Source: Enterococcus hulanensis
GTDB lineage: Bacteria; Bacillota; Bacilli; Lactobacillales; Enterococcaceae
Length of the DNA: 64,000 nt
Assembly (NCBI RefSeq): GCF_005405485.1
Contig: NZ_BJED01000020.1
Location: forward strand, 1 to 64,000
Direction: 5' to 3'
The notes beneath the pieces were generated by a model that worked only from the letters and a program-made list of their open reading frames with translations, did no database searches and was not told where the DNA came from. A program made the position numbers and the translations under genes. Positions 2,172-63,102 of the stretch are shown here, piece after piece. The stretch's first letter is position 1; every line of letters starts with the position of its first letter.

Positions 2172-3086
2172 TTAGTTTACTTTTGTGATCTGTACTTCTG
2201 GTAATAATTCTTGAATAAACTCTGCGGTAGCTAAATCATCGGAAAAAGTAGTGGCACTGCCGCAAGCGACGCCCCATTTGAATGCTTCAACTGGGTCTTG
2301 CGTTTTAGTGAAGTTGCCGACAAAACCAGCAATCATTGAGTCGCCTGCACCGACAGAATTCTTAACTGGGCGTTTTAGGACATTTGAACGATAAATCCCA
2401 TCTTTGGTAAAAAGTAATGCACCGTCGCCAGCCATTGAAACTAGAGCATGTTGAGCACCTTCGTCTAATAAGCGTTGACCAAAGGGATAAATATCTTCTA
2501 CTGAGTGGAATGTTGTTTGGTATAGGTCTGCTAATTCATGATTATTTGGTTTCACTAATAAAGGACTCTTTTCTAAAGCATCCATCAAATCAGCACCAGT
2601 GGTATCAATGACAAAAGCAGCACCTTGAGCTTTAATGATCTCAATTAATTCTTGATAAAAGCCGGTTGGTATGCTGGCAGGCTTGCTGCCTGATAACACC
2701 ACGATGTCGTCAGTAGTTAAATGAGTCAACACTTTTTTCAATTCATCCATTTCATCCGCTGAAACGGCCGGGCCTTGTCCATTGATCTCAGTTTCTTCAT
2801 TGGCCTTTAGCTTGATATTGATTCGTGTATCGTCAGCAACAGGAGTAAAGTTTGTCTTTATAGTTTCACGTTCCAGCCATTCTTTAATAAAGTTTCCGGT
2901 AAAACCACCAAGGAAACCTAAGGCTGTTGATTCATTATTAATTCGTTTTAAGATTCGTGAAACGTTAATGCCTTTTCCGCCGGGTAATTTCAAATCGCTT
3001 TTCATTCGATTGACGTCGCCAATCGCAAGTTGATCGACGTGCACAATATAGTCGATCGATGGGTTTAGTGTCACTGTATAAATCAT
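2172..3086 (-). CDS. fruK: 1-phosphofructokinase
   Basis: Phosphorylates the fructose 1-phosphate made by FruA to fructose 1,6-bisphosphate, feeding glycolysis. The 304-residue protein is a PfkB/ribokinase-family kinase. It opens with the family start MIYTVTLNPSIDYIV, has the first PfkB signature GGKGINVSRIL (about residue 37), and the C-terminal ATP and catalytic signature NSVGAGDSMIAGFVG (about 240). The ATG overlaps the fruR stop codon by four bases (ATGA) and is preceded by AAGGAGG, so translation of the two genes is probably coupled. Confidence 0.96.
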   Translation of the reverse strand: MIYTVTLNPSIDYIVHVDQLAIGDVNRMKSDLKLPGGKGINVSRILKRINNESTALGFLGGFTGNFIKEWLERETIKTNFTPVADDTRINIKLKANEETEINGQGPAVSADEMDELKKVLTHLTTDDIVVLSGSKPASIPTGFYQELIEIIKAQGAAFVIDTTGADLMDALEKSPLLVKPNNHELADLYQTTFHSVEDIYPFGQRLLDEGAQHALVSMAGDGALLFTKDGIYRSNVLKRPVKNSVGAGDSMIAGFVGNFTKTQDPVEAFKWGVACGSATTFSDDLATAEFIQELLPEVQITKVN

Positions 3087-3835
3087 ACAGAAACCTCCTT
3101 CAAGGTAGTTTGCTCTGTGATTTGATCGTGAATAACCAAAGGACAGGTATCTGTGAGGATTGAAGCTGCTGATAGCGGCGCGACACTGACAAAGCTGGTT
3201 TGGTTAAACTTACTATGATCAACAAGAACAAAAGCTTCTTCTGCTTGCTGGATCGCTGCTCTTTTCAAAATCGCTTCTTCAGGGTCGGGAGTAGAGTAGC
3301 CGCTGTCGAGATGCACACCATTCATACCCATAAAGGCTTTATTGAAACGATATTGTTTTAATTGTTCTAACGCCTGTGAACCGACAACTGCGTCAGTAGT
3401 AAGTTTTATGCGGCCGCCCAAGACGATCGTAGCGATCTGCGCTTCAACTAAGTGGGCGGCAAGACCAACGGAATTCGTTACAACCGTTACTGCACGATCT
3501 TTCAGAAAGGGAATCATTTCGGAAGTCGTTGTGCCGGCATCCAGATAGATTACGTCACCCTCAGTGATGCAGTCTGCTGCATACTTAGCAACCAATTTCT
3601 TCTGATGAACGTTTTTGGCGGATTTTTCGATCATACCCAGTTCTTGCTCTAAATGTTGCGGACGTTTCGCACCGCCATGGATGCGTTCTAACATTCCCAT
3701 ATCTTCCAATTCCTGTAAATCTCTGCGAACTGTCGACTCTGAGGAATGTAACCATTGGATTAAATCCTGTGATTTTACTAATCCATCACGTTCTAGCCAG
3801 TCAATTATTTTTCTATGTCGTTCTTCTGTAAGCAT
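3083..3835 (-). CDS. fruR: DeoR-family regulator of the fructose operon
   Basis: Transcription regulator of fructose uptake. The 250-residue protein has an N-terminal DeoR winged helix-turn-helix (EERHRKIIDWLERDGLV, then SSESTVRRDLQELEDMG). The DeoR sugar-phosphate sensor domain follows (IYLDAGTTTSEMIPFL, ending with the VDHSKFNQTS region). The start at MLTEERH is chosen because GGAGG lies 7 bases upstream; an in-frame extension to 3916 would include the promoter. First gene of fruRKA. In this family the inducer is fructose 1-phosphate, as shown for the Lactococcus homologue (from memory). Confidence 0.93.
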   Translation of the reverse strand: MLTEERHRKIIDWLERDGLVKSQDLIQWLHSSESTVRRDLQELEDMGMLERIHGGAKRPQHLEQELGMIEKSAKNVHQKKLVAKYAADCITEGDVIYLDAGTTTSEMIPFLKDRAVTVVTNSVGLAAHLVEAQIATIVLGGRIKLTTDAVVGSQALEQLKQYRFNKAFMGMNGVHLDSGYSTPDPEEAILKRAAIQQAEEAFVLVDHSKFNQTSFVSVAPLSAASILTDTCPLVIHDQITEQTTLKEVSV

Positions 3836-51823: not shown

Positions 51824-52405
51824 ATGAAAGAATTGACAGATCGTATCAAGAACAACGGCCGTGTTTTAGGTGAAGGGGTACTCAAAGTTGATGAATTCAT
51901 CACCCACCAAGTAGATCCTGAATTGATGGATGCAATGGGAAAGCGTCTAGCTGATGTGTTTGCCGACAAAAAGATCACTAAAGTAGTGACTATCGAAGCT
52001 TCGGGAATCGCCCCGGCAGTCTACGCAGCCCAAGCATTAAAAGTGCCTATGATCTTTGCCCGCAAATCAAAAAGCCTGACAATGGACGAAGAATTATTGA
52101 CGGCCTCTGTATACTCTTTTACCAAACAGGTGACAAGTACTATTTCTATTTCTCGTAAATTCCTTTCTGCAGAGGATAATGTCCTATTAGTCGATGACTT
52201 TTTAGCGAACGGTCAAGCCGCAAAGGGATTGATTGAATTGTGTCAGCAAGCTGGTGCTAGTGTTGCCGGAATCGGGATTTTGATTGAAAAATCATTCCAG
52301 GATGGCCGCCAATTGATTGAAGACATGGATATTCCAGTTGTTTCCCTAGCGAGAATCTCTTCCTTACATGACGGTAAAGTAACATTTATCGAGGAGGACG
52401 CATAG
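51824..52405 (+). CDS. xpt: Xanthine phosphoribosyltransferase
   Basis: Salvages xanthine to XMP with PRPP. The 193-residue protein has the type I PRTase fold: [18 protein letters not shown], the flexible loop, and the PRPP motif [21 protein letters not shown] (about 122-142). ATG 51824 (MKELTDRIK) follows GGAGAAGAG; the longer frame from 51764 would run through the riboswitch terminator. Operon with pbuX, controlled by the purine riboswitch, so both are switched off when guanine-type purines are plentiful. Confidence 0.95.
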
Positions 52406-52406
52406 A

Positions 52407-53690
52407 GTGACAAGCGAGACAGGAAATGGAAAATCAGCAGTATTAGGTCTGCAGCATTTATTAGCGATGTATGCAGGAGCAGTAGCGGTACCACTTTTGA
52501 TCGGAACAGGTTTGGGATTCAATGAAGCGCAAATGACGTATTTGATTTCTATCGATATTTTTATGTGCGGTATTGCCACTTTGCTGCAATTGACAGTAAA
52601 TAAATTTTTCGGTATCGGTTTACCGGTTGTTTTAGGCTGTGCCATCCAAGCTGTAGCACCATTGATTTTGATTGGACAAACACATGGTGTTGGAACCGTC
52701 TATGGGTCAATTATTGCTGCTGGGATTTTTGTTGTATTGATCTCAGGTATTTTTTCTAAGGTAGAAAAATTATTTCCGCCAATCGTAACCGGAACTGTAA
52801 TTACAACGATTGGGTTGACTTTGATTCCCGTTGCGGTCACAAAAATGGGCGGTGGCGATGCTGCGGCGAAATCTTTTGGTGATACAACGAACTTATTATT
52901 AGCTTTTGTAACGATTATTTTGATTTTAGCCGTGCAGGTTTTTGGACGGGGGTTCATCCGATCAATCGCTGTGCTAGTCGGTTTAGTTGGCGGAACGGTT
53001 CTTGCGGCGCTTTTAGGTCAAGTTGATCTAGCGGCTATCGGTCATGCACCGATGTTCCACGTACCTCAACCATTTTATTTTGGTACCCCAAAGTTTGAGC
53101 CATTTTCGATTATATTAATGATCATTATTTCGATTGTAAGTATGGTGGAATCAACAGGTGTTTATTTTGCCTTAGGCGATATTGTTGGTAAAGAGGTAAA
53201 AGAGGATGATTTGAAGCGCGGGTATCGTGCAGAAGGATTAGCCGTTATCTTAGGCGGATTGTTCAATACATTTCCTTATACCGGATTTTCACAAAATGTT
53301 GGACTAGTACAACTATCTGGTATCAAAACGCGACGTCCAATTTATTTTTCAGCTATCTTTTTGATTATTCTAGGACTTTTTCCCAAGGTAGGCGCACTGG
53401 CTCAAATTATTCCTGAACCTGTTTTAGGCGGCGGGATGCTGGTAATGTTCGGCATGGTGGCTGTACAGGGAATGAAGATGCTGTCTAAAGTTGATTTCAA
53501 CGATGAAAAGAATTTATTGATCATTGCGATCTCGATCGGTTTTGGTTTAGGCTTTAACGCATTACCAACATTGTTCGCGAAGTTACCGGAGACTGTTCAA
53601 ATGTTTACCGGCAATGGTATCGTCATGAGCAGCTTGTCAGCAATAGTATTGAATCTTTTATTTCATGGGTATAAAAAGGAAACGAAATAA
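52407..53690 (+). CDS. pbuX: Xanthine permease (NCS2 family)
   Basis: Membrane symporter for xanthine uptake, 427 residues with about 14 membrane segments. NCS2 signatures include LGLQHLLAMYAGAVAVPLLIG near the N-terminus, the substrate-binding MVESTGVYFALGDIVGKEV (about 240) and NTFPYTGFSQNVGLV (about 285). The GTG start has GAGGAGG 9 bases upstream and lies 2 bases after the xpt stop. It supplies the substrate of Xpt. Confidence 0.95.
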   Translation: MTSETGNGKSAVLGLQHLLAMYAGAVAVPLLIGTGLGFNEAQMTYLISIDIFMCGIATLLQLTVNKFFGIGLPVVLGCAIQAVAPLILIGQTHGVGTVYGSIIAAGIFVVLISGIFSKVEKLFPPIVTGTVITTIGLTLIPVAVTKMGGGDAAAKSFGDTTNLLLAFVTIILILAVQVFGRGFIRSIAVLVGLVGGTVLAALLGQVDLAAIGHAPMFHVPQPFYFGTPKFEPFSIILMIIISIVSMVESTGVYFALGDIVGKEVKEDDLKRGYRAEGLAVILGGLFNTFPYTGFSQNVGLVQLSGIKTRRPIYFSAIFLIILGLFPKVGALAQIIPEPVLGGGMLVMFGMVAVQGMKMLSKVDFNDEKNLLIIAISIGFGLGFNALPTLFAKLPETVQMFTGNGIVMSSLSAIVLNLLFHGYKKETK

Positions 53691-53726
53691 AAAGTAAGCG
53701 CGGCTTTTGTCGTGCTTACTTTTTTA
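53690..53726 (+). terminator. Terminator after pbuX
   Basis: AAAAGTAAGCGCG (53690-53702) pairs with CGTGCTTACTTTT (53711-53723) with one G-U pair, with T to 53725. Confidence 0.92.
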
Positions 53727-53734
53727 ATCATTAA

Positions 53735-53811
53735 AAACACGAACATTAGATTAAAAATCACTTTTAATATTCGAATTACGTTTTGACTTACCATAGGGGT
53801 CTTGCTAAAAT
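53735..53811 (+). promoter_or_regulatory. purE promoter with a pair of inverted PurBoxes
   Basis: AAACACGAACATT (53735-53747) matches the PurBox AWWWCCGAACWWT at 11 of 13 positions. An inverted partner TAATATTCG (53665+100, i.e. 53765-53773) faces CGAACATTA (53740-53748) across 16 bases. The promoter is TTGACT (53783-53788), 17 bases, TAAAAT (53806-53811) with a TG extension. The first PurBox centre lies about 76 bases before the expected start site. Confidence 0.82.
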
Positions 53812-53893
53812 AAGTTTGAATAATGGTAAAGCTTATCAATTGACTTGATTTCTCTAAAGGAATCAAGCCTTTAACAGGAGAAGGGAGCAATTT

Positions 53894-54382
53894 ATGAATC
53901 CAGAAGTTGCAGTTATTATGGGCAGTACCTCTGATTGGGAAACGATGAAGCATGCGTGTGAAAGCCTTGATGAATTAGGTGTCGCATATGAAAAACGGGT
54001 CGTTTCGGCACATCGAACACCTGATCTAATGTTCGACTTTGCAGAAAAAGCTCGCGAAAAAGGAATCAAAGTGATTATCGCAGGTGCTGGCGGTGCAGCG
54101 CACTTACCGGGAATGGTAGCCGCGAAGACCACCTTACCAGTAATCGGCGTACCCGTTCAATCGAAGGCATTGAACGGTTTGGATTCTCTGTTGTCGATCG
54201 TGCAAATGCCGGGCGGAATTCCAGTTGCTACGACAGCCATTGGAAAAGCTGGTGCAACTAACGCCGGACTACTTGCGGCACAGATGCTTTCAATGTATGA
54301 TAAAAAAGTAGCTGAGCGCTTGGAAGAAAAGCGCCAGCAAATGACACAATCTGTATTGGAAAGTAGTGAGCAACTTGGTTAA
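53894..54382 (+). CDS. purE: N5-carboxyaminoimidazole ribonucleotide mutase
   Basis: Class I PurE, 162 residues, converts N5-CAIR (made by PurK) to CAIR in purine synthesis. The N-terminal [22 protein letters not shown] (active-site His-Arg region, about 41-47) and [16 protein letters not shown] (about 68-83) are characteristic. GGAGAAGGGAG precedes the ATG. purK overlaps its end by 17 bases, so the pair forms one unit under the PurBox promoter. Confidence 0.97.
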
Positions 54383-55496
54383 ATCGATAAAACCAGGCTC
54401 TACGATTGGTATCGTAGGCGGAGGACAATTGGGCCGGATGATGGCTATCAGCGCAAAGGAAATGGGTTTTCGTACGGGCGTGATCGATCCGACAGAAGAT
54501 TGTCCGGCTGCGCAAGTTTCGGATTGGCATATCGTAGCTGATTATGATGATCAAACGGCTTTGGAAGAAATGGCTCGTAGATCACAAGTTATTACGTATG
54601 AGTTTGAAAATGTTGATGTGGACACGATCAATCATATCCAGCATTTCGCGAATATTCCTCAAGGGACCGACTTGTTAGCAATCAGTCAGGATCGTTTGAT
54701 GGAAAAATCTTTTTTAGAAAACAATAATATTGTGATCGCTCCATACGCGACGATCATCAGTCCAACGGATATCCAAGATGCTATCGAGGGTATCGGTTAT
54801 CCTTGTGTGTTGAAAACAACGCGCGGCGGTTATGATGGACATGGTCAGTACGTGTTGAAAAGCACGGCTGATTTAGCACCTTCGATGAATCTGCTGCGGC
54901 AAGGAACCTGTGTTTTGGAAGCGTGGATTCCTTTTGAAAAGGAATTGTCTGTTCAAGTGGCAGGAAATAATATCGGTGATTACGTAACATTTCCAGTAGT
55001 AGAAAACGTTCATCGTAATAATATTCTTCATGAAACGATTGCACCAGCAGGAATTGATACAGCTGTGGCGAAGGAAGCGACTCGTATCGCGAAAGTGATT
55101 GCGCAAGGTGTGGATTTAGTCGGCACCTTATGTGTAGAATTCTTCCTTACAAAAGCAGGCGCATTATACGTGAATGAAATTGCCCCTCGGCCACATAATT
55201 CGGGACACTACACGATTGAAGCCTGCAGCATGAGTCAATTTGATGCGCATATTCGCGGAATTTGCGGCTGGCCGTTGAGTGAACCAAAGTTATTATCAAA
55301 CGCAGTAATGGTCAATGTCTTAGGGGAAAATCTTTTGAAGACATACGAAATGATTGATTTATGGCCAGACTGGCATTTCCATTATTACGGCAAAGCAATG
55401 CCGAAAAAAGGTCGCAAGATGGGACACGTTACCATTCTGACCGACAGTATTCAACGAACCTTAGACGATGTTAAAAAAACCGAAACTTGGGATTAG
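54366..55496 (+). CDS. purK: N5-carboxyaminoimidazole ribonucleotide synthase
   Basis: ATP-grasp enzyme that carboxylates AIR with bicarbonate to N5-CAIR. The 376-residue protein has the N-terminal [20 protein letters not shown], the ATP-grasp loop [17 protein letters not shown] (about 140-156), [17 protein letters not shown] and [22 protein letters not shown] split over 267-288. The start is the GTG at 54366 inside purE, with GGAAAG just upstream. No terminator is seen between its stop and the tandem leader before purB, so read-through is possible. Confidence 0.96.
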
Positions 55497-55510
55497 TAAT
55501 CACAAGCAAC

Positions 55511-55644
55511 AGTAAATTAAGTAAATAGTGGAACAACAAACCATTAAACTATCAGCGTAAAAACAGATAGCAGAATGATATACGGCGCGACAATCAGACT
55601 CATTTTTTCTTAGGAAAAAAAGACTACATTAATAGGAGCAAGGA
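55511..55644 (+). repeat. Tandem leader element, copy 1 (upstream of purB)
   Basis: The 95-nt core at 55550-55644 recurs at 55703-55797 with only two differences (55610 T/A and 55621 A/T). The 39 nt before it (55511-55549) are repeated at 55664-55702 without gaps at 26 of 39 positions. Each core carries a hairpin (copy 1: 55600-55609 with 55614-55623, one A-A mismatch), the sequence ATACGGCGCGAC and an AGGAG site near its 3' end. In copy 1 the AGGAG serves the 9-codon ORF at 55644. Confidence 0.9.
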
Positions 55645-55673
55645 TGTCAGTTCTGCTCTTCCCAGTTAACTAA
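55644..55673 (+). CDS. Nine-codon ORF in the purB leader (possible leader peptide)
   Basis: ATG at 55644, 5 bases after AGGAG (55634-55638), encodes MSVLLFPVN and ends TAA at 55671-55673. It sits where purB sits relative to copy 2 of the repeat. Whether it is translated is unknown; the good ribosome binding site is the only evidence. Confidence 0.4.
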   Translation: MSVLLFPVN

Positions 55674-55797
55674 GTAAAGCATGTAACACCAAAGTTTTAT
55701 GATATCAGCGTAAAAACAGATAGCAGAATGATATACGGCGCGACAATCAGACTCATTTTTTCATAGGAAAAAATGACTACATTAATAGGAGCAAGGA
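55664..55797 (+). repeat. Tandem leader element, copy 2 (carries the purB ribosome-binding region)
   Basis: The core at 55703-55797 is 93/95 identical to copy 1, displaced by exactly 153 nt. Its hairpin TCATTTTTTC (55753-55762), loop ATAG, GAAAAAATGA (55767-55776) is a perfect 10 bp. The element ends in AGGAGCAAGGA, which includes the purB Shine-Dalgarno, so folding of this RNA could directly control purB translation. Confidence 0.9.
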
Positions 55798-55805
55798 GAA
55801 ATATA

Positions 55806-57101
55806 ATGATACCTCGATATGCAAGAGCTGAAATGGCAAATATTTGGAGCGATGAAAATCGTTATAAGGCATGGCTGGAAGTGGAAATCTTAGCGGATGA
55901 AGCTTGGGCTGAGTTAGGAGAGATTCCAAAAGCCGATGTAGAAAAAATTCGTGCAAATGCCGGATTTGATATTGATCGTATTTTAGAGATCGAACAATCA
56001 ACAAAGCATGATGTGGTAGCTTTTACCCGTGCTGTTTCTGAAACTCTAGGAGAAGAAAGCAAGTGGGTTCATTATGGCTTGACCAGTACCGATGTGGTGG
56101 ATACTGCGTACGGGTATTTATATAAACAAGCAAATGATATTTTGCGCCAAGATTTACAAGACTTTTTAGCAATCATTGGTGAAAAGGCGAAAGAGCATAA
56201 AAACACTGTAATGATGGGGCGAACTCATGGTGTTCATGCGGAGCCAACAACATTTGGACTGAAATTAGCTACTTGGTATTCAGAAATGAAGCGAAATATC
56301 GAACGTTTCGAACATGCGGCTAAAGGTGTTGAAGCAGGAAAAATCTCAGGAGCGGTTGGTACGTTTGCGAATATTCCGCCATTTGTGGAAGAATATGTTT
56401 GTGAGAAATTAGGGATTCGACCACAAGAAATTTCAACACAGGTTTTACCTAGAGATTTGCATGCGGAATACTTCTCAAGTCTTGCATTGATTGCAACATC
56501 AATCGAACGTTTTGCCACTGAAATCCGTGGTTTACAAAAATCTGAAACGCGTGAAGTCGAAGAATTTTTCGCGAAAGGGCAAAAAGGGTCTTCTGCTATG
56601 CCCCATAAACGCAACCCAATCGGTTCTGAAAACATGACTGGTTTGGCCCGAGTGGTGCGTGGACACTTGATCACTGCTTTTGAAGATGTAGCTTTGTGGC
56701 ATGAACGTGATATTTCTCATTCTTCAGCGGAGCGGATCATTACACCAGATACGACTATTTTAGTGGATTATATGCTGCATCGTTTCGGCAACATCGTTAA
56801 GAATTTGACGGTCTTCCCAGAAAATATGAAGCGCAACATGCAAGCTACTTTTGGTTTAATCTATAGCCAACGTGTGATGTTGAAGTTGATTGATAAAGGA
56901 ATGACACGTGAACAAGCCTATGATTTAGTTCAACCCAAGACGGCTTATGCTTGGGATCATCAAACACAATTCCGTCCGTTACTGGAAGACGATGAAAAAA
57001 TCACCAGCATTTTATCAGCTGCGGATTTAGATGATGCGTTTGACTATAACTATCATTTGAAAAACGTCGATAAAATTTTCGAACGTGTAGGAATCAAATA
57101 A
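55806..57101 (+). CDS. purB: Adenylosuccinate lyase
   Basis: Acts twice in purine synthesis: SAICAR to AICAR plus fumarate, and adenylosuccinate to AMP plus fumarate. The 431-residue protein shows the fumarase/aspartase superfamily blocks: [30 protein letters not shown] (general acid His), and the signature [18 protein letters not shown] split around 260. The start is ATG 55806 ([10 protein letters not shown]) after AAGGAG; an in-frame start at 55773 falls inside the repeat element. It follows a duplicated leader and ends at a strong terminator, so it can be expressed apart from purEK and purC. Confidence 0.97.
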
Positions 57102-57102
57102 A

Positions 57103-57136
57103 AAAAATCTCTTGCCGCTGGGCAAGAGATTTTTTT
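57103..57136. terminator. Bidirectional terminator after purB
   Basis: AAAAATCTCTTGCC (57103-57116), loop GCTG, then GGCAAGAGATTTTT (57121-57134). It is perfect and serves purB and the converging minus-strand ORF. Confidence 0.95.
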
Positions 57137-57138
57137 AT

Positions 57139-57510
57139 TTATGCGTATGAATAGACATCTACAAAACAACTTTCGTGAAGCTTTGCTAAAAGGCAATCAA
57201 TCAATTGATAGTCATAGTTCTCTGAATTCAGCAGGATTTCAATCCGATAAGAATTCTTTAGGAAAGAATGATCCTTAAATTGTCGAATAACTAATTTATC
57301 TTGGGCGGTATTAGCAAACTGCAGAGATTGCATAGCTTGAGATTGTCTTGGATGCAAAAGTTTTTTTAGGTTACGGTAGGAATAAAAGCTCGTGTTGCGA
57401 TTAAGATTGTGGGTCGTATCTAATCCTAATAAAGCATTTAATAAATGTTGCTTATCTGTTTCGTTCATTGAGTTTAGAAATTTTTGAGCTGCTGCCGGCG
57501 CATCTAACAT
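57139..57510 (-). CDS. Protein of unknown function inside the purine cluster (123 aa)
   Basis: An ORF with a good ribosome binding site (GGGGGAATTATT before the ATG), ended by the purB terminator. The N-terminal third looks helical (MLDAPAAAQKFLNSMNETDK; HLLNALLGLD). The rest mixes basic and hydrophobic residues, with LVIRQFKDHSF and YRIEILLNSENYDYQLIDCL, and two cysteines lie near the end. No signal peptide, membrane segment or motif that I recognise is present. It lies antisense to the pur genes and is divergent from purC. It may be a lineage-specific insertion; function unknown. Confidence 0.65.
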   Translation of the reverse strand: MLDAPAAAQKFLNSMNETDKQHLLNALLGLDTTHNLNRNTSFYSYRNLKKLLHPRQSQAMQSLQFANTAQDKLVIRQFKDHSFLKNSYRIEILLNSENYDYQLIDCLLAKLHESCFVDVYSYA

Positions 57511-57618
57511 AATAATTCCCCCATATATTTCATTCGAATTAAATATAGCACCATTTTCACAAAATGTAAACGCTCTCTTAGAGTGGGTTTGATTTTTAAC
57601 TAAATAGACAAGGTTTTA

Positions 57619-57694
57619 AACACGAACATTAGATAGTTTATTTCATTATAATATCCGATAAATTGTTGAAATATTTTTTTCCTGTTGTTACACT
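57619..57694 (+). promoter_or_regulatory. purC promoter with a pair of inverted PurBoxes
   Basis: AAACACGAACATT (57618-57630) is identical over 13 bases to the purE box. CGAACATTA (57623-57631) faces TAATATCCG (57649-57657) across 17 bases. A promoter TTGAAA (57666-57671), 17 bases, TACACT (57689-57694) puts the first PurBox about 76 bases before the start site, as at purE. A TATAAT at 57647-57652 overlaps the second box and is an alternative -10. Confidence 0.8.
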
Positions 57695-57767
57695 AAAGAT
57701 GAAATTGAGAAACGAACGATTTTTAATGATTTGTTTTAGAATGTTCATCAAAAGGGAGCGTTATGAC

Positions 57768-58484
57768 GTGGAAAAAGGAACTTTATTGTATGAAGGAAAA
57801 GCAAAACAATTATTCCGAACGGATGATCCAGAAGTTATCTGGGTCGAATATTTGAACCAAGCGACAGCTTTGAACGGTGCTAAGAAAGACCAAATCAGCG
57901 GTAAAGGCGAACTTAACAATCAAATCACTGGATTGATTTTTGTTTTCTTGAAAAGTAAAGGAATTAAGAATCATTTTATCCAGCAACTTTCCACGAACGA
58001 ACAGCTGATCCAAACAGTTGGAATTATTCCTTTAGAAGTAGTCGTGCGCAATGTCGCAGCGGGCAGCTTTTCAAAACGACTAGCTATTCCAGAGGGCACA
58101 GCTTTAAAAACACCTATCGTAGAGTTTTATTACAAAAACGACGAGTTGGATGATCCGATGGTCGTTGACGATCACATCAGAATTTTGGGAATTGCAACGA
58201 CTGAGGAGATTGCGCAATTGCGTCAAATGGCTCTGGAAGTTAATGAGGCGCTGATCGAACTATTTGACTCGATAGACATTAAGCTGATTGATTTTAAGTT
58301 AGAATTTGGTCGTCAAAAAGACGGTACAATTTTATTGGCAGATGAAGTTTCGCCAGACACTTGTCGTTTGTGGGATAAAAAGACGAACGATCATTTAGAC
58401 AAGGATATTTATCGTCGCGACTTAGGCGACATCATTCCGGTTTACCAAGAAGTACTAAATAGATTAGAAAAGCGAGGAAAATAA
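57768..58484 (+). CDS. purC: Phosphoribosylaminoimidazole-succinocarboxamide synthase
   Basis: ATP-dependent joining of aspartate to CAIR, giving SAICAR. The 238-residue protein starts MEKGTLLYEGKAKQLF and shows EVVVRNVAAGSFSKRL (about 84-99), IKLIDFKLEFGRQKDG and LADEVSPDTCRLWD. The start is GTG 57768, 9 bases after AAGGGAG; the ATG at 57763 is out of frame, and the in-frame extension to 57663 overlaps the promoter. First gene of purCSQLFM. Confidence 0.96.
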   Translation: MEKGTLLYEGKAKQLFRTDDPEVIWVEYLNQATALNGAKKDQISGKGELNNQITGLIFVFLKSKGIKNHFIQQLSTNEQLIQTVGIIPLEVVVRNVAAGSFSKRLAIPEGTALKTPIVEFYYKNDELDDPMVVDDHIRILGIATTEEIAQLRQMALEVNEALIELFDSIDIKLIDFKLEFGRQKDGTILLADEVSPDTCRLWDKKTNDHLDKDIYRRDLGDIIPVYQEVLNRLEKRGK

Positions 58485-63066: not shown

Positions 63067-63102
63067 AAATGAATACTTAATTATGAGTAAGGGGCGAATC
63101 GA

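Follow-up and report, generated by a model that had tools for sequence, protein, structure and literature searches.

The twin sequences before purB in Enterococcus hulanensis look like copies of a little-known mobile element and not like a purB switch

Directly upstream of purB (assigned by NCBIfam TIGR00928) in the window, i.e. the 64,000-nt stretch of Enterococcus hulanensis DNA analysed here, two near-identical sequences lie in tandem. A preliminary description interpreted them as an undescribed tandem cis-regulatory RNA or a duplicated translation-control site. Upon recomputation, positions 55550-55644 and 55703-55797 are indeed 93/95 identical at an offset of 153 nt, the 39 nt preceding each core agree at 26/39 positions, and the next 30 nt further upstream agree at 8/30, i.e. 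show no homology. An independent repeat finder returned a single 135-nt family (55510-55644 and 55663-55797, spacing 153, 89%), and the hairpin (in copy 2 at 55753-55776), the AGGAG and the 9-codon ATG...TAA frame behind copy 1 were all found in place. The duplication as such was thus reproduced, but its boundaries had to be redrawn: the true copy 2 covers 55645-55797, starts with TGTCAG right behind the AAGGA of copy 1 and ends with the AGGA of the purB Shine-Dalgarno sequence (SD), while copy 1 has lost its 5' arm (no left arm was found). The features are collected in Table 1.

Table 1. Features of the repeat units in the window (P1, HP2 and P3 are the helices of a unit)
Feature	Position	Strand	Basis or remark
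Unit 1, upstream copy	55510..55644	+	left part decayed; core 55568-55644 is a profile match; ends AAGGA; P1 5' arm unrecognisable
Unit 2, complete, 153 nt, TGTCAG to AGGA, joined to the purB SD	55645..55797	+	sequence, profile match
P1 5' arm, TGTCA-G(bulge)-TTCTGCT	55645..55657	+	10/10 pairs with the 3' arm; positional test, 31 distinct junctions
P1 3' arm, AGCAGAA-TGAT-AT	55722..55734	+	inter-arm loop ~64 nt (long type)
P3 5' strand, CGC-GA-C	55739..55744	+	mutual information; covariation counts
HP2 hairpin, TCATTTTTTC-ATAG-GAAAAAATGA	55753..55776	+	repeat finding, fold, covariation counts
P3 3' strand, G-GA-GCA	55788..55793	+	outermost pair C-A unformed in unit 2
AGGAG, formed by the terminal AGGA of unit 2 and the next G, as purB SD	55794..55798	+	purB ATG at 55806
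Likely decayed right-half tail remnant (AAAAATGAATACTTAATTATGAGTAAGGG) between purF and purM	63067..63095	+	weak profile matches: E 0.06; 9.5 bits, E 0.012

Copies read in register reveal a unit of ~105-157 nt with a 5' hairpin containing a bulged G (P1), a second hairpin (HP2) and a short helix around HP2 (P3), in the layout TG-NNN-G-NNNNNNN / loop / NNNNNNN-NNN-TAT-NCGN-xyz-GA-n ... HP2 ... n'-GA-z'y'x'-AG-GA. The first and second N blocks pair around the bulged G to form P1, and most units end in AGGA. Among 133 units of the named loci the P1 loop measures 13-19, 28-29 or 61-68 nt, with only three exceptions (45, 101 and 111 nt). This anatomy explains the contrast between flank and core identity, which is real and had been attributed to constraint or homogenisation of the core: the 39 nt of the flank fall in the variable loop of P1, whereas the core consists mostly of the P1 3' arm and P3/HP2.

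In two earlier surveys of P1 the left arms had been picked by complementarity, which biases the outcome, and our claim for this hairpin therefore rests on a retest in which arms were taken solely by their position after AGGA. At 97 junctions (31 distinct), 96.5% of the pair cells form with the arm of the next unit, compared to 84.7% (sd 1.1, maximum 89.0) in 1000 shuffles and 76.5% with the arm of the preceding unit; 21 of the 31 distinct junctions are perfect, and the bulge is a G in 30 of them. HP2 and the new helix P3 emerged from mutual information. All three helices show covariation, and the covarying stems that the preliminary description had proposed to look for were thereby borne out. 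Alignment A1 contains 45 of 71 profile matches, hand-picked as fairly complete and aligned with MAFFT, and gives a less biased count than A2 (150 of 181 matches, 136 distinct), since A2 was fitted to the model. In A1 we counted 74 double-changed cells vs 26.8 in shuffled alignments, with 85.1% vs 74.4 of cells paired, and the covariation score also exceeded the shuffled one; the number of pairs in which both partners had changed (7, shuffled 6.1) and that of additional pair types (20, shuffled 18.4) were unremarkable. For P3/HP2 in A2, 229 double-changed cells compare with 74.6 shuffled, and one P3 pair occurs as AU 46, UA 31, GC 30 and CG 6 times. P3 is weak at its outermost pair, which is unpaired in 74 of 135 cases in A2, and the helix carries two conserved GA steps opposite each other.

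The core of unit 2 (55721-55797, G000:C20) is matched by the covariance model at E 9.5e-13. In the minimum-energy fold of this unit P1 and HP2 form and the SD is left free; excess folding stability was rejected for it, with a z of -0.27 relative to shuffled sequence. A search of Rfam (release 15) yielded no match overlapping a unit in the window (52000-58000), at 10 further loci or at L040, in agreement with the earlier statement that no consensus from a list of known regulatory RNAs (purine, ZTP, PRPP/ykkC, THF, glycine, T-box) fits. At L062:2348-2457, near the element and outside it, lies a match to Lacto-3 RNA (Rfam Ref68, 46.4 bits). Where the right end of a unit continues into AGGATGTCAG or AGGATGCCAG (84 units), the reading frame opened by the ATG there spans 5 to 113 codons. 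There is thus no conserved leader peptide, a leader peptide behind copy 1 was ruled out, and the 9-codon frame is a by-product.

How widely is this unit distributed? A blastn search with the purB region found 56 places, many in tandem, in the window's own 4.74-Mb genome and gave long match lists in other genomes of the genus too. A profile search started from the two purB cores and iterated (threshold E up to 1e-3) detected 71 copies in 28 of 32 fetched stretches of the own genome and in the window; the weakest copies, in L063 (about 20 bits) and L064 (about 18 bits), may be remnants or have arisen by chance. At the level of the order, the covariance model R1, built from 45 own-genome cores, matched 17 of 295 genomes; at that of the family it matched 43 of 105, in 5 of 17 genera, with all 20 genomes of the genus among them. 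Eleven of these 20 hold at least 45 copies each and one, G015, only 3. Beyond the genus, g11 and G326, the number of R1 matches per family genome stays at 11 or below; G326 itself has at least 45, compared to 8 or fewer in the listed members of its own genus. With a degenerate pattern we found 82 stretches in named genomes, 80 of them listed as loci and all from Enterococcus (avium, raffinosus, malodoratus, devriesei, viikkiensis, pallens, pseudoavium and others), and on five plasmid records of E. raffinosus, each about 1 Mb long, 6-9 places are present per record. Runs of N, be they assembly gaps or withheld stretches, interrupt the tandem arrays L044, L057 and L042, and copy numbers there are thus lower bounds. 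The repeat is a small (about 105-157 nt), non-coding, structured and dispersed sequence, present in dozens of copies in many Enterococcaceae genomes.

The placement of the units falls into two classes. Class A units end in AGGA and stand, sense-oriented, directly before the remainder of a gene's SD. With matches lacking a right end left out, an ORF start follows 3-18 nt on for 21 of 23 last units of arrays in the own genome and 77 of 81 at the named loci, compared to 1/18 and 1/75 of the internal units and to 511 of all 2104 AGGA on both strands of the own stretches and the window, and therefore the AGGA of the unit serves as the SD. The downstream genes that could be named, among them purB, gyrA, glmU, the genes for the DNA polymerase III alpha subunit and fructose PTS IIA, der (behind a degenerate unit) and, in G032, mraY, share no common theme. 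The smaller class B ends in TAGC, carries no SD and does not use AGGA; at most arrays read, its units start directly behind terminator T-runs. At L040 (2585-3448, minus strand), a three-unit class B array (2860-3155) lies between two same-strand T-box leaders (RF00230, 104.9 and 108.5 bits), right after the terminator of the first and before trpE.

Orthologous sites with and without the unit are informative on how unit and SD were joined. At gyrB-gyrA, 13 of the 20 genus genomes are empty, six are filled (with two units in G010) and G012 contains the right part only. Twelve empty sites read AGGAGGATC and that of G014 reads AGGGGGATC, while the right junction AGGA/GGATC is common to all seven occupied sites, the six filled ones and the truncated one. 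The left junction reads AGGA/TGTCAG in G000 and G018 and AGGA/TTTCAG in G006, and has drifted in G008, G010 and G011; in G018 about 190 nt of other sequence precede the unit. With regard to a target-site duplication, AGGA, which is also the usual end of the element, flanks the unit of G000 on both sides and occurs once in the empty site. A three-gene tree distributes the filled genomes over different clades, with G003, G015 and G017 as empty relatives, and thus this SD was either a target several times over or the place of an old insertion with later, precise losses. The pattern at gyrB-gyrA reads as precise insertion into an SD that rebuilds the SD. Before glmU, nine of 20 genomes have 1 to 5 units, all ending at the same SD; units also occur upstream of hprK in 5/20 genomes (one a weak partial match) and at the 3' end of metK in 1/20. 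Arrays of 0 to 5 units are found at the same SD, and in many related genomes the orthologous sites without the element keep an intact SD. Upstream of hprK, at L328 (G003) and L330 (G012), a terminator T-run is followed without a gap by the 3' strand of HP2 (CCGTTTTTTGGAAAAAT), which looks as though recombination had put the T-run in the place of the 5' strand of HP2. In the purF-purM gap, full units are present in G010 (three) and G011 (two), with four weak matches elsewhere. An altered C-terminus of PurF due to the remnant in the window was rejected, as unit-free relatives also end in ...EKTSFY or similar and the C-terminus is unchanged.

Adjacent units resemble each other more closely (right half 0.85, loop 0.74 alike; n = 37 pairs) than units at different loci (0.70 and 0.58; n = 1908), which points to growth of the arrays in place and to an old dispersal. 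Among 63 units of the own genome we found no near-identical pair of full units at distant loci, the best pairs reaching 0.86 in the right half with 0.96 in the loop, or 0.98 with 0.56, which argues against recent transposition. In the distant loci L045 (2917-2996) and L055 (3162-3241) the right halves are 98% identical and the loops only 56%, and it seems that the two parts of a unit can be exchanged independently of each other. Two unit types alternate (A-B-A-B or A-B-A) at L048:2507-3001, L046:2642-3018 and L041:3010-3391, which suggests that a pair of units was duplicated as a block.

Is the unit tied to purB? Within 600 nt upstream of purB, the profile detected no unit in the other 19 genus genomes, the best other match reaching 5.1 bits (E 0.3, G001), and at this site the unit was thus detected in 1 of 20 genomes, the window's own. 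By eye, and below profile detection, stretches before purB in G018 and G005 resemble the left end and the tail, and the insertion at purB may therefore predate its apparent age. The preliminary description had itself named absence from the purB leader of close relatives and scattering through the genome as observations that would speak against its reading. Both were found, and a link of the twin repeat to purB is not supported. A conserved purine-responsive leader RNA of purB was rejected on the same count of one genome in 20. The proposed undescribed tandem cis-regulatory RNA holds insofar as the sequence is structured, tandem, placed at a translation start and undescribed as far as searched; it does not hold as something specific to purB. 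The repeat is a real and unusual dispersed element that was misread as a purB leader.

We consider it very probable that a dispersed mobile element of Enterococcaceae, without any special link to purine control, is present in the purB leader as two units in tandem. Units would have entered by site-specific insertion 3' of AGGA, with an inserting enzyme that would act in trans and read one strand of the folded ends; tandem arrays would then grow by further insertion or unequal exchange, and their upstream units would decay afterwards. At purB, the element would have entered this lineage only, as far as detected, and then been duplicated, presumably with no special tie to purine control, and any effect on translation would be a by-product of having ~150-300 nt of folded RNA ahead of an SD that stays intact. 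Class B, whose units do not use AGGA, and the lack of excess folding stability in unit 2 count against this account.

A more specific form of this explanation is single-strand transposition by an HUH/Y1 enzyme, supplied in trans and inserting 3' of AGGA in the manner of IS200/IS605 or REP/RAYT. REP/RAYT and IS200/IS605-derived elements have folded ends, a bulged stem and strand-specific insertion, and lack inverted repeats. The enterococcal repeat shares the folded sub-terminal hairpins, the bulged base in P1, the absence of terminal inverted repeats and, as we infer from its single orientation relative to the target and its precise empty sites, strand-specific insertion. In IS608, guide and cleavage sequences pair, and P3 resembles this pairing by joining the right end to a segment 5' of HP2. 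Unlike in those elements, P3 encloses HP2, the target is an SD and no associated Y1 gene was found. A Y1 transposase match is present in 12 of the 20 genus genomes (mostly draft assemblies; past enzymes may be lost), but five of the eight genomes without one (G001, G009, G010, G011 and G017) contain at least 42 R1 matches each; a 743-nt IS200 common to three G004 loci has ends unlike those of the repeat; and at 20 Y1 loci no Y1 gene was found flanked by the repeat, with two weak profile matches (E 0.09 and 0.83). The HUH/Y1 form of transposition is therefore a tentative possibility and not our expectation, and IS200/IS605 was rejected as the parent because of the differing ends and the enzyme match missing in the five copy-rich genomes.

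Matches to reverse transcriptase (RVT_1) occur in 15/20 genus genomes; G011 has neither a Y1 nor an RVT_1 match, yet at least 45 copies. Neither enzyme thus seems needed today, and a group II intron or other process driven by reverse transcriptase was rejected as the mover on the evidence of G011. Among the candidates tested in the 20 genus genomes (Y1 transposase and reverse transcriptase), no mobilising enzyme was found. We also searched the 80 named loci for an extended, autonomous form whose P1 loop would contain a gene. The 5' arm was sought as far as 3500 nt upstream, the length of the locus permitting, and no gene-sized loop was seen: the arm lies within 130 nt in 133 of 147 complete cores, and two of the other 14 (both at L261) have candidates at 225 and 543 nt. 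Omitted from this search were 39 of 186 core matches, which were incomplete or within 140 nt of the edge of a locus.

Does the repeat belong to a known kind of element? Like a MITE it is short, non-coding (its frame is not conserved) and dispersed; the terminal inverted repeats of a MITE are missing, as its ends TGTCAG... and ...AGGA are by eye not inverted repeats of each other. The bcr1 repeat of the Bacillus cereus group is dispersed and has the character of a mobile element, and we know of no SD target for it. By description, bcr1 is alike in dispersal, mobile character and length (147 and 167 bp in a table of PMC2267715). The nearest kind, again likened by description, are BOX, RUP and SPRITE, small interspersed repeats of another Gram-positive coccus, Streptococcus pneumoniae, of which BOX has variable tandem modules and which are judged parasitic and slow-moving; they are enriched between convergent genes, a location where little harm results from them (PMC3049150). 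BOX and RUP have terminal inverted repeats (PMC3049150), whereas the enterococcal repeat has a right end fused to the SD in nearly all last copies of class A.

The nearest single description is that of Efa-1 of E. faecalis, a sequence of 163 bp with 65 copies (18 complete), intergenic and folding into a pair of adjacent stem-loops, according to Petrillo et al. 2008 (PMC2267715). Genus name, size, copy number, intergenic placing and paired adjacent stem-loops all agree, and this likeness is one of description, not of sequence. However, the exact-pattern scan gave no E. faecalis among the 80 named loci, and the ceiling of 11 R1 matches per family genome outside the genus, g11 and G326 also counts against identity, with a set of genomes that may or may not include E. 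faecalis. That the repeat is Efa-1 already described is in our judgement unlikely. Apart from this possible account, we recognised no report of an SD-inserting Enterococcus repeat in the open-access literature, subscription literature being mostly outside the scope of the search, and save for a possible identity with Efa-1 the repeat is undescribed as far as searched.

It is improbable that we are dealing with a class of element that targets the SD itself (AGGA^G), owes its movement to an enzyme outside the known types of transposase and places the same folded leader on dozens of unrelated genes per host. A domesticated regulon appears a doubtful reading as well: the element would have moved in the past, and its copies would now act as common leaders for translation or mRNA stability, bound by one protein, sRNA or ligand. 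The covarying helices, the fusion to the SD, concerted evolution within arrays and retention at the same genes across species (mraY in the four g14 genomes G032, G149, G096 and G213, by eye, and gyrA in two genera) fit such a regulon, but the presence at orthologous genes is patchy, the named downstream genes have no common theme, several upstream units have decayed, and the covariation may also stem from a need for structure during transposition. A tandem riboswitch or attenuator specific to purB and sensing a purine intermediate can practically be dismissed, as the two near-identical structured units directly 5' of the purB SD that suggested it are undetectable before purB in 19 other genus genomes, precede gyrA, glmU, a fructose PTS IIA gene and others, also occur behind terminators, and have no Rfam match.

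In summary, the mobile element that we prefer as the source of the purB twin carries a warning: a duplicated structured leader beside a metabolic gene can mimic a tandem riboswitch, and annotators of Enterococcus genomes could mask such units with a model of this kind. The repeat occurs within operons, at the point where an mRNA is most sensitive; that its end copies the target may be what makes it tolerable. If there were indeed a class of element that targets the SD, it would amount to a portable translational regulon built by transposition. The repeat offers a clean system for studying its recognition of the SD, the enzyme behind its movement and a possible common control gained by dozens of genes.
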